A stretch of 64,000 bases of DNA, taken from positions 1-64,000 of the forward strand of contig NZ_JAHRCY010000008.1 in NCBI RefSeq assembly GCF_019083965.1, read 5' to 3'. The translations under genes and the position numbers were made by a program. Below the pieces are notes generated by a model. That model ran no database searches, had not been told where the DNA came from, and saw only the letters and a program-made list of their open reading frames with translations. Below are positions 56,491 to 59,632 of this stretch, piece after piece; position 1 is the stretch's first letter; each line of letters begins with the position of its first letter. The DNA is from Catellatospora tritici (GTDB lineage Bacteria; Actinomycetota; Actinomycetes; Mycobacteriales; Micromonosporaceae).

Positions 56491-57255
56491 TTGACCGGCA
56501 CCGCACTGCTGCGCCGCCCCGGCCACCGCCTGGCCGAGGGCATCGTCACCCACATCGACCGCTCCCCCGTCGACCTCGACCTGGCCCTGGCCCAGCACGA
56601 GGCGTACGGGCGAGCGCTGGCCGAACACGGCTGGGCCCCGCGCTACGCGCCGGAGGCCGACGACTGCCCCGACGCCGTGTTCATCGAGGACCAGGTCATC
56701 GTCGTCGACGACCTCGCGGTGCTCGCCCACTCCGGGGCGGTGACGCGGCGGGCGGAGGCGGCCGGGGCCGAGGCGGCCGTGCGGGAGCTCGGCCTGCGCG
56801 TGGCGCGCATCGCCGAACCGGGCACCCTCGACGGCGGTGACGTGCTGCAGGTCGGCTCGACCGTCTACGTCGGACGCGGCGGGCGTACCAACGGCGAGGC
56901 GATCCGGCAGCTGCGCGAGCTGCTGGCACCGCTGGGCCGCACCGTGGTCGCGGTGCCGCTGGGCGAGGTGCTGCACCTGAAGTCGGCGGTGACCGCGCTG
57001 CCCGACGGCACCTTCCTGGCCCTGCCGCACCTGGTGCCGACCGGGCTGTTCCCGGCCGTACGCCCGGTGGCCGAAGAGGGCGGCTGCCACGTGGTGCCGC
57101 TGGGCGGCGACCGGATCCTGCTGGCCTCCTCCGCCCCGCGTACCGCCGAACTGCTGGTGGACCTGGGTTTCCGGCCGGTGGTCGTCGACATCGGCGAGTT
57201 CGAGAAGCTCGAAGGCTGCGTGACCTGCCTGTCGGTCCTGGTTCCCGGTAGGTAG
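56491..57255 (+). CDS. ddaH: Dimethylarginine dimethylaminohydrolase-like amidinotransferase
   Basis: A 254-aa guanidine-group-modifying enzyme of the DDAH class, hydrolysing methylated arginines to citrulline. Substrate loop DCPDAVFIEDQVIV, EPGTLDGGDVL, catalytic His in EVLHLKSAVTAL and nucleophile Cys in KLEGCVTCLSV are all in place. The TTG start at 56491 lies 4 bp after the TM peptide stop, with AGAAG upstream. Arginine-deiminase relatives are longer; DDAH fits in length. Confidence 0.88.
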   Translation: MTGTALLRRPGHRLAEGIVTHIDRSPVDLDLALAQHEAYGRALAEHGWAPRYAPEADDCPDAVFIEDQVIVVDDLAVLAHSGAVTRRAEAAGAEAAVRELGLRVARIAEPGTLDGGDVLQVGSTVYVGRGGRTNGEAIRQLRELLAPLGRTVVAVPLGEVLHLKSAVTALPDGTFLALPHLVPTGLFPAVRPVAEEGGCHVVPLGGDRILLASSAPRTAELLVDLGFRPVVVDIGEFEKLEGCVTCLSVLVPGR

Positions 57256-57269
57256 CACGCAGGGCGCAT

Positions 57270-57304
57270 CATGAAGGCCCCTCTCGACGAAGGAGACCTT
57301 CATG
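57270..57304 (+). promoter_or_regulatory. Start-codon-covering hairpin of the TIGR04222 gene
   Basis: CATGAAGG (57270-57277) is the exact complement of CCTTCATG (57297-57304), which contains the ATG start. The 19-nt loop holds the SD (GAAGGAG). It may tune translation of the downstream operon. Confidence 0.5.
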
Positions 57305-58222
57305 GACGACGGTGCCACCTGGGGCATCCCCGGGCCCACGTTCCTGTGGCTCTACCTCGGCCTGATCGCGGTGGTGCTGGTCGGCACGCTGGTCCGCCGG
57401 CGGCGGCTGTTCGCCGGACCGGACTCGGTGCGCGTCGACCAACTCACGCCGCAGCAGGCCGCGTACCTCAGCGGCGGGCCGCGCATGGCCATCTACGCGT
57501 CGCTGGCGTTCCTGCGCCAGTCCCACGTGATCGAGACGACCCAGGACGGTCGCCTGCAGCGGCGCGGCGGCCTGCCCGCGGGGTCGACCTCGCTGGACGC
57601 CGCGGTGCTGCATGCGACGAGCAACAGCGCTCGGACCAGCCAACTGAGCGCCGACCGGGCCGTGGCCGCGGCGCTGGAGGAGCTGCGCTCCTCGCTGGAG
57701 CGGGCGGGCCTGGTGGTCTCCCCCGACGTCGCCCGCAGTGCCCGGCGCGGCGCCCACGTGCTGCTCGCGCTGTTCGCGCTGGGGCTGCTGCGGGCCTGGT
57801 CGGGCATCCGCAACGACCGGCCCATCGTGTACCTCGTGCTGGTCATGGTCCCGCTGCTGGTCGTGGGCCTGATTCTGCTGCTGCGCCGCCCGACCCGCAC
57901 CAGGGCCGCCGACCGGGCGCTGGTCGACGCCCGTCGCCACTACTTCCACCTGTCCCCCGGCCAGCAGCCCTCCTGGGCCACGTACGGCGCGACGAGCGCG
58001 GCCATGGGCGTGGGCCTGTTCGGGGCGGCCGCGCTATGGAGCGCCGACCCGGCGTTCGCCGCCGAGGCCCAGATCGAGCAGGTCCGCCGGACGACCGGCG
58101 CCGACGGCAGCACCACCTACTCGTGCAGCACCGGCTCCTCCTGCAGCGGCGGCTCGTCGTGCGGCGGCGGCTCGTCCTGTGGCGGTGGCTCGTCCTGCGG
58201 CGGCGGTGGGTGCGGCGGATGA
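57302..58222 (+). CDS. TIGR04222 membrane protein with periodic Cys-rich tail
   Basis: A 306-aa protein with membrane helices near residues 13-32, 150-166, 174-195 and 231-246 and a conserved segment VDQLTPQQAAYLSGGPRMAIYASLAFL typical of TIGR04222. The last 35 residues are an SSCxGG hexad repeat: Cys at 275, 281, 287, 293 and 299 (every six residues) and then 304. The gene overlaps a DUF692 enzyme by 4 bp. DUF692 enzymes modify peptide cysteines, so this tail is a strong candidate substrate. A metal-binding tail is the alternative. Confidence 0.85.
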   Translation: MDDGATWGIPGPTFLWLYLGLIAVVLVGTLVRRRRLFAGPDSVRVDQLTPQQAAYLSGGPRMAIYASLAFLRQSHVIETTQDGRLQRRGGLPAGSTSLDAAVLHATSNSARTSQLSADRAVAAALEELRSSLERAGLVVSPDVARSARRGAHVLLALFALGLLRAWSGIRNDRPIVYLVLVMVPLLVVGLILLLRRPTRTRAADRALVDARRHYFHLSPGQQPSWATYGATSAAMGVGLFGAAALWSADPAFAAEAQIEQVRRTTGADGSTTYSCSTGSSCSGGSSCGGGSSCGGGSSCGGGGCGG

Positions 58223-59049
58223 CCCCGCTGGCCGGGCGCGGGGTCGGCATCGGCTGGCGGCCCGAGATCGCCGGATTCGTGGCGGAGCTGCCCGGACTGC
58301 GCTTCGTCGAGGTGGTCGCCGAGTCGGTGCCGCACCGCGGCCACGGCGAGCCGCACCCGGCACTGGCCGACCTGGCCCGCGCCGGGGTGGCCGTGGTGCC
58401 GCACGGGGTGAAACTGTCCCTCGGCGGCGCCGAACCGGTCGACCCGCACCGCGTCGAGCACCTGGCCCACTGCGCGCGGGTGCTGCGGGCGCCGCTGGTC
58501 AGCGAGCACATCGCGTACGTGCGCGCGGGCGGGTTGGAGGCCGGGCACCTGCTGCCGGTGCCGCGCAGTCGGGCGGCGGTCGCGGCGATCGCGGCCAACG
58601 TCGCCCGGACCACCGCCGAACTGGACGTGCCGCTGGCGCTGGAGCCGATCGCGGCCCTGTTCGACTGGCCCGACGACGAGCTCACCGAGGCCCAGTTCCT
58701 GACCGAGGTGCTGGACCGCACCGGCGCGCTGCTGCTGCTCGACATCGCCAACGTGTATGCCAACGCCCGCAACCGCGGCACCGACCCGCTGGCCCTGCTC
58801 GCCGAACTCCCGCTCGACCGGGTGGCCTACGTCCACGTCGCGGGCGGTTCCGAGCGCGGCGGCCACTACCACGACACGCACACCGACCCGGTGCCGTGGG
58901 AGGTGCTGGAGCTGCTGCGCGAGCTGTGCGACCGGTCCCGGCCGCCCGCGCTGCTGCTGGAGCGTGACGGCGACTACCCGCCCGCCGACGCCCTGCGCGC
59001 CGACCTCGATGGCATCGCTCACGCCGCCGGCTACCCGGTGATCACGTGA
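58219..59049 (+). CDS. DUF692 family multinuclear-iron enzyme (MbnB/TglH/BufB relative)
   Basis: A 276-aa TIM-barrel enzyme. Metal ligands expected for the family are visible: His97 (VSEHIAY), Glu142 (LALEPIA), Asp175 and Asn178 (LLLDIANVYANARN), His206 (YVHVAGG), His218/Asp219/His221 (HYHDTHTDPV) and Glu248 (LLLERDGDYP). Characterised members oxidise cysteine residues of peptides (oxazolone/thioamide in methanobactin, beta-carbon excision in 3-thiaGlu) with a partner protein. It overlaps the Cys-tailed gene (ATGA). A partner-like gene follows after 145 bp. Confidence 0.88.
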   Translation: MTPLAGRGVGIGWRPEIAGFVAELPGLRFVEVVAESVPHRGHGEPHPALADLARAGVAVVPHGVKLSLGGAEPVDPHRVEHLAHCARVLRAPLVSEHIAYVRAGGLEAGHLLPVPRSRAAVAAIAANVARTTAELDVPLALEPIAALFDWPDDELTEAQFLTEVLDRTGALLLLDIANVYANARNRGTDPLALLAELPLDRVAYVHVAGGSERGGHYHDTHTDPVPWEVLELLRELCDRSRPPALLLERDGDYPPADALRADLDGIAHAAGYPVIT

Positions 59050-59092
59050 CCCCCGCCGCCGGGCGAACGCCCGCCGCGAGGCGCCGGCCGAG

Positions 59093-59158
59093 GGTGCAGT
59101 CTCGGGGAAACTGCGGGAATCACGGCCGGAGTTCGCGCACTTTCCCCGAAACTGCACC
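59093..59158. repeat. Family 2 dispersed element, copy 2
   Basis: GGTGCAGT-C-TCGGGGAAA (59093-59110) pairs with TTTCCCCGA-A-ACTGCACC (59141-59158) at 17 of 18 positions. It is homologous to 45820-45889. It is inserted between the DUF692 gene and its presumed partner gene, so it interrupts an operon. Confidence 0.85.
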
Positions 59159-59194
59159 GACCAACGGCACGCGAGGGCGGCGCGGGGGGATGGC

Positions 59195-59632
59195 GTGACG
59201 GGCGAGGCGTGGCGGGACGAATTGGCGCGGCGGCAGGAGGAGCTGGTCCGGGCGCTGGTGGGCGGGGGTGAGCTGCCCGGTGGGTTCGTGGCGCGGGACG
59301 TCGGCGCCACCCGTGACGCGCTGCTGCGCAAGCGGGCCGGTGAGGTGGCCCGGGTGTGGCCGCTGCTGGCGGCTTCGGCCGGTCCGGGCCGGTGGGCGGC
59401 GGAGTTCGGCGCGTGGGCGGCGGGACGGCCGCCGCAGGGCTCGCTGCGTGACGGCTGGGACTACGCGCGGGCGCATCCGCCGACCGGGGCGGCCGCGCTG
59501 GAGCTGGCAGAGCGGGAGCTGCTGTGGTCGTACGACAGCAGCTCCGCGCCCCGTCCCCGCCGGGGTCTCGGCCTGCGCCGGGTCGGCGGGGTGTTCCTGG
59601 TCCGCTGGCGCGGACGTGTCCACCGCTGGTGA
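59195..59632 (+). CDS. Putative DUF692 partner protein (MbnC/BufC/DUF2063-like)
   Basis: A 145-aa protein: a helical start ARRQEELVRALVGGGELPGGF, the segment VGATRDALLRKRAGEVARVWPLLA, and a C-terminal basic strand pair (GLRRVGGVFLVRWRGRVHRW). N-terminal helices of this look precede DUF692 genes in many genomes and belong to the DUF2063-like recognition partner. Assignment rests on position, size and this pattern, so it is moderate. The GTG at 59195 follows a GGGGGG stretch. No Cys is present. Confidence 0.6.
   Translation: MTGEAWRDELARRQEELVRALVGGGELPGGFVARDVGATRDALLRKRAGEVARVWPLLAASAGPGRWAAEFGAWAAGRPPQGSLRDGWDYARAHPPTGAAALELAERELLWSYDSSSAPRPRRGLGLRRVGGVFLVRWRGRVHRW

Follow-up and report, generated by a model that had tools for sequence, protein, structure and literature searches.

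The question raised by this locus is whether the cysteine-rich tail of a membrane protein may serve as the substrate of the peptide-modifying enzyme encoded directly behind it. MNIO enzymes are known for acting on small or secreted precursors, and a membrane-protein substrate, if true, would extend their chemistry to resident proteins. The window (the whole stretch of 64,000 nucleotides from Catellatospora tritici that was analysed) carries at 57302-59632 a module of three plus-strand genes, encoding a TIGR04222 membrane protein, an MNIO (DUF692) enzyme and a protein of 145 aa. From the sequence comparisons described below, the module is real and conserved and is most likely a membrane-protein Cys-modifying system; the reading that the three genes form one module which modifies the tail cysteines of the TIGR04222 protein is given a probability of about 75%.

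The first gene (57302..58222, plus strand) encodes the putative substrate, a protein of 306 aa that scored 158 bits against the NCBIfam model TIGR04222 (cut-off 43). Its Cys/Ser/Gly tail, which runs from the first of six cysteines to the terminal CGG (58124..58219, plus strand), would hold the modification sites. The MNIO gene (58219..59049, plus strand; 276 aa) overlaps the TIGR04222 gene by 4 nt, the ATGA at 58219-58222 being shared in such a way that the MNIO start lies inside the TIGR04222 stop. The third gene (59195..59632, plus strand), which begins with GTG, is separated from the MNIO gene by 145 nt, about half of them taken up by a repeat element, and ends 18 nt before a convergent ABC gene, while the gap upstream of the TIGR04222 gene is 46 nt. 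As observed in the list of open reading frames of at least 60 aa, the operon of the window has little room for another precursor gene. The genome of the host contains a single match each to TIGR04222 and PF05114. The repeat element between the MNIO and partner genes (59093..59158) is an inverted repeat with arms of 27 nt that recurs genome-wide: an 18-mer of its arm occurred 311 times with up to two mismatches (152 forward, 159 reverse), a backward-read control gave 0 occurrences, and several of the listed copies are paired about 46 nt apart. By its sequence, it is classed as a REP-like family. A dimethylargininase gene (56491-57255; NF045660, 385 bits) ends 46 nt before the module, and its cluster was found in 4 of 27 loci compared.

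The assignment of the second gene rests on PF05114, which matched the 276-aa product with 264 bits (gathering cut-off 25), and on phmmer matches to 8hci_D and 3bww_A; the protein is 96% identical to the MNIO of Catellatospora sp. KI3. Nine residues (H62, H97, E142, D175, N178, H206, D219, H221, and E248) all exceed 95% conservation among 148 MNIO matches, a set in which some loci are counted twice. Mapped through the HvfB relative 3bww, in which the equivalents of HvfB D242 and H244 stand at chain positions 241 and 243, N178, D219, and H221 correspond to N175, D242, and H244 of HvfB site 3, and the other conserved residues presumably belong to iron sites 1 and 2. Changes in the site-3 residues of HvfB are reported to abolish activity (PMC13419390). 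The product is thereby regarded as a putative iron-dependent peptide oxidase that keeps the iron-binding residues of its superfamily, and the DUF692 gene with retained iron ligands and a 4-bp overlap that the earlier note had read from the DNA is confirmed. Among the NCBIfam models of characterised enzymes, BufB gave the best score (179 bits, cut-off 310); HvfB gave 149 bits (cut-off 360) and MbnB 26 bits (cut-off 325). The four family loci with the highest PF05114 scores (L003, L004, L005, and L006; 280-314 bits) had no partner relative and perhaps represent other MNIO systems; likewise, the MNIO matches of the class genomes G488, G449, and G429 reached 366-370 bits, the next in the list being 274, and perhaps form another MNIO subfamily.

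The conservation of this arrangement was followed in three sets of genomes. The family sample comprised 200 genomes of the host's family, in which PF05114 was found in 134 and TIGR04222 at E 0.001 or better in 150 (137 over the TIGR04222 cut-off); 140 regions were fetched, covering the stronger TIGR04222 matches, which were the ones listed, with the exception of two listed places (G037 at 7393025 and G092 contig 12). The class sample comprised 394 genomes, from which 60 regions were picked by hand, and the named set comprised 80 MNIO loci, overlapping with the family sample. Among the family matches listed, 127 of 152 distinct TIGR04222 proteins had an MNIO gene on the same strand less than 2.5 kb downstream, and none had one upstream; in the named loci, all 75 TIGR04222 matches were followed by an MNIO. 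In the 8 of 80 named loci with no TIGR04222 match, the MNIO match begins at base 3-64 of the sequence. Five class MNIO loci (L259, L262, L266, L290, and L291) gave no TIGR04222 match with the profile built from the family, and were matched by the NCBIfam model.

The third gene follows the same distribution. Although the 145-aa protein had no Pfam or NCBIfam match, relatives detected by its profile followed the MNIO in 114 of 116 linked family loci, at 4-221 nt from the MNIO stop, and in the remaining two the contig edge lies 123 and 6 nt after the MNIO. The partner was also present in 79 of 80 named MNIO loci (the sequence of the exception, L213, ends about 120 nt after the MNIO) and in 38 of 39 class MNIO loci (the exception being L287, an MNIO without a partner match), and the profile search detected none in family loci with only unlinked TIGR04222 copies. 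The position after the MNIO and the lack of a DUF2063 signature are the features of PME-type 2 partners; DUF2063 was touched by just 2 of 49 partner relatives, with a best E of 0.0033. The partner profile had 0 matches among PDB sequences up to E 10. For the AlphaFold2 model of the protein (pLDDT 96), Foldseek gave no match at E 0.001 or better, the best being 7dz9_C from the MbnABC complex (E 0.096). VIA-align, which covered the 276 chains ranked highest by Foldseek, placed first 8hi7_A of TglHI (Z 6.8, 131 aligned, 3.9 A), then 3dee, NGO1945 (Z 5.4, 101 aligned, 4.0 A), and 7dz9_C (Z 4.2, 121 aligned, 5.2 A), the next row having 2.5; we infer that chain A of 8hi7 represents TglI and that chain C of 7dz9 represents MbnC. 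Each of these Z values is middling, and it is the presence of three MNIO-partner entries on top that we find telling for the predicted fold. This finding and the linkage support the earlier suggestion that the small gene encodes a partner of the MNIO, and the 145-aa protein is considered a probable, PME-type 2 like MNIO partner. MNIO and partner share a single stop-free open frame in 16 class loci, divided equally between the families f20 and f21 (eight each), and in f21, represented by a single genus in the sample, the TIGR04222 gene follows the MNIO-partner fusion. As judged from the gene order, TIGR04222, MNIO, and partner are co-directional, closely packed and kept together in the sampled actinobacterial genomes, which bears out the TIGR04222-DUF692 adjacency that the earlier note had asked to be surveyed.

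In the window, the tail contains six cysteines with a spacing of 6,6,6,6,5, as previously described, and the protein ends in GGGGCGG. For the 115 TIGR04222 copies located at most 250 nt from an MNIO, hereafter the nearest copies, tail cysteines were found in every one (from 2 to 6 per tail, with six in 7 of the 115), so that the conservation of tail cysteines beside DUF692, on which the earlier reading depended, was observed. Of the 340 intervals, 171 had a spacing of 6; every one of the 456 cysteines stood in the context [GST]C[GSN], and 110 of the 115 tails ended in CGG, as compared with a mean of 3.0 and a maximum of 8 over 200 shuffles. The tail Cys pattern exceeds chance. Since Ser, Gly, and Cys are encoded by varying codons, the pattern is kept at the protein level. 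Among linked copies, whose counts come from a sampling that favours strong and linked matches, the -CGG end was found in 119 of 127 from the family, 18 of 37 from the class and 62 of 75 from the named loci, which overlap with the family; 13 of the 75 named copies do not end in CGG and 2 lack a Cys array, defined as two or more tail cysteines in the [GST]C[GSN] context. In locus L153 (from 4553), the TIGR04222 tail is a long Ala/Arg-rich frame, as though a Gly/Cys tail had been shifted out of frame, through decay or a sequencing error. Two TIGR04222 copies precede one MNIO in L066, L068, L070, L076, L095, L118, L127, L130, L142, L150, and L155, and in L068, L070, L076, and L095 the copy adjoining the MNIO ends in GGGS or GGGQ and the upstream copy in CGG.

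The distribution of the array bears on the rival explanation that survives best, namely that the cysteines work unmodified, as a metal-binding or disulfide-forming tail, and that the MNIO and its partner target a substrate elsewhere. Linked copies carried the array in 161 of 164 cases, and at the other end it occurred in 0 of 9 copies whose genomes lack PF05114, these copies belonging mostly to distant subfamilies; the counts leave aside L059, L110, L128, L157, and L168 (unlinked, contig-end or open-frame) and the open-frame class row L253. The three linked copies lacking it (L066, L118, and L284) share their locus with another array-bearing copy. Such a contrast would not be expected of a tail that has nothing to do with the MNIO, nor would the scarcity of room for a precursor gene in the operon of the window or the string ATGA or GTGA that occurs at the TIGR04222 stop in 107 of the 115 nearest copies. 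Nevertheless, the linkage is not strict, because of the 33 unlinked copies in genomes that bear an MNIO 12 retain the array, and the Gly-rich tails without a Cys array in relatives from genomes lacking PF05114 (L311 and L312) would also agree with an unmodified tail. In genus g4, twelve unlinked paralogues have in common a short, charged tail without cysteines; 11 of the 12 genomes that carry them encode a separate linked copy with cysteines, and the remaining one (G116) has its MNIO at the start of a contig. A tree-based test of independent pairs for linkage versus Cys yielded just 2 starred pairs (12 with unsupported branches), too few to be informative, with a median p of 1 for Cys and 0.5 for CGG. 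Considering both sides, we judge it unlikely that the array functions unmodified.

A more restricted alternative concerns the -CGG end alone, which could be a by-product of the ribosome-binding site and start codon of the MNIO lying within the tail codons. It would account for the ATGA or GTGA string at most stops and for the last TIGR04222 codon being mostly GGA. However, the CGG end is kept by all 8 nearest copies in which the string is missing and by 4 of the 6 distant tandem copies that likewise lack it, which makes this end independent of the overlap with the MNIO start, and 6 of the 12 unlinked array-bearing copies also end in CGG, so that we regard the by-product explanation as improbable. 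Still less probable is that the TIGR04222 protein serves in the membrane as the adaptor or exporter of a small, remote and unannotated precursor peptide, its tail being a spacer. The wider occurrence of TIGR04222 than of MNIO in the class (135 versus 94 of 394 genomes) speaks for it; the strongly fixed Cys context and terminus, and again the little room for a precursor in the operon of the window, speak against it.

The reading of the tail as substrate requires attention to where the tail lies. As seen by eye, the N-terminus of the TIGR04222 protein (MDDG, a hydrophobic stretch and then RRRR) resembles an N-out anchor, and charge counts in 46 linked proteins of 53 aligned place residues 33-148 and 197-226 inside and both the N-terminus and residues 169-175 outside. 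The last segment, 227-247, is weakly hydrophobic (mean best 19-residue value of 1.39 versus 2.12 to 2.66 for the others) and is split into short helices in the AlphaFold2 model, whose mean pLDDT is 86 and falls below 50 at residues 264-277 and 279-301; no informative match to this fold was found in the PDB. Going by the charge counts and by the tail being nearly devoid of Lys and Arg, the tail probably, though not certainly, lies outside the membrane. Position counts in the 115 nearest-linked copies revealed a family motif, DPxFAxxAEIQR, adjoining the last hydrophobic segment, of which the juxtamembrane stretch ADPAFAAEAQIEQVR (codons 248-262; 58043..58087, plus strand) is a relative. An EIQR-like pattern was found in 86 of the 115 nearest copies, in 7 of the 12 tandem ones and in 6 of 25 that are unlinked, and is absent from the twelve Cys-less paralogues of g4, and the DPxFA part occurs in Cys-less copies too. 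The stretch could possibly act as a recognition peptide. Release of the tail by signal peptidase at DPxFA was also considered, as 111 of 115 copies have an A where the -1 residue would be, which resembles an embedded cleavage site; it was not adopted because D, E, Q, and K are among the residues at position -3 and because Cys-less paralogues have the motif as well.

We hypothesize a sequence of events in which the partner would help to recruit the TIGR04222 protein, perhaps through DPxFAxxAEIQR, and the iron site of the MNIO would oxidise several of the Gly/Ser-flanked tail cysteines. The products would most likely be thiooxazole-type groups, as in bufferins; since BufB was the best NCBIfam match, such a group is a better guess than the oxazolone/thioamide pair of methanobactin. 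Modification may take place in the cytoplasm, while the fourth segment, which is weakly hydrophobic, is being inserted or earlier than that. Because the MNIO shows no export signal by eye, cytoplasmic modification with the last segment inserted afterwards is the simplest order. The outcome would be an array of modified cysteines tethered to the membrane, which at the cell surface might bind metals or buffer stress. Many of the recurring flank clusters in 27 selected loci are shadow ORFs, and the recurring flanks presumably include housekeeping-like genes (aconitase-like, HAD-like, kinase-like and ABC exporter, named without a family search). The metal role is weak, as no metal genes were recognised among the recurring flanks of these loci. 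The wider proposal, that a polytopic membrane protein is the substrate of the MNIO and its partner, with the membrane domain as permanent leader and anchor and the oxidised Cys array, positioned from a fixed -CGG terminus and exposed at the membrane, as a built-in metal or redox buffer in numerous actinobacteria, is in our view about an even call. If true, a large actinobacterial family, present in the class at the frequency given above, would gain a role.

Among the known systems, methanobactin has a precursor that is a small free peptide. The fold predicted for the partner in the window resembles chain C of MbnABC, and the MNIO matches the MbnB model at just the 26 of 325 bits mentioned. Bufferins likewise depend on an MNIO and a partner acting on Cys-rich proteins, and BufB gave the best NCBIfam match; however, bufferin precursors carry Sec signal peptides and have PME-type 1 partners (PMC12452194), whereas here a TIGR04222 membrane protein with no DUF2282-type Pfam match takes the place of the precursor. 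In oxazolins (HvfA/B/C), an MNIO and its partner are described to make 5-thiooxazole from Cys (PMC13419390); the site-3 residues correspond, but the EGKCG motif of oxazolins is absent from the TIGR04222 protein, and the scores of the MNIO lie below the equivalog cut-offs of both BufB and HvfB. The closest likeness is to the clusters of TIGR04222, MNIO, and PME-type 2 genes of Antoine et al. (2025; PMC12452194), which comprise the same three gene types, include Micromonospora examples and lead to the same proposal: there, TIGR04222 proteins are put forward as candidate substrates of MNIO enzymes, their Cys-rich tails being periplasmic and their partners of PME-type 2. The idea of the tail as substrate is thus not novel. 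The reading given in the earlier note is supported in part, by the conserved adjacency, the tail cysteines and the partner. The article also mentions TIGR04222 proteins without MNIO linkage and large periplasmic domains, whereas our charge counts would put residues 33-148 inside. It puts the share of TIGR04222 clusters with a PME-type 2 gene at 10% or more, many MNIO-bearing clusters appearing to have no partner gene, whereas nearly every linked locus here has one. The near-universal partner, the -CGG terminus, the EIQR motif, the Cys-less unlinked paralogues and the MNIO-partner fusions were not found in the text accessible to us. With the -CGG end, the EIQR motif, the near-universal partner and the natural fusions, the published hypothesis would be testable with a few co-expression constructs. 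The TIGR04222 module is a further case of the kind already predicted in 2025.
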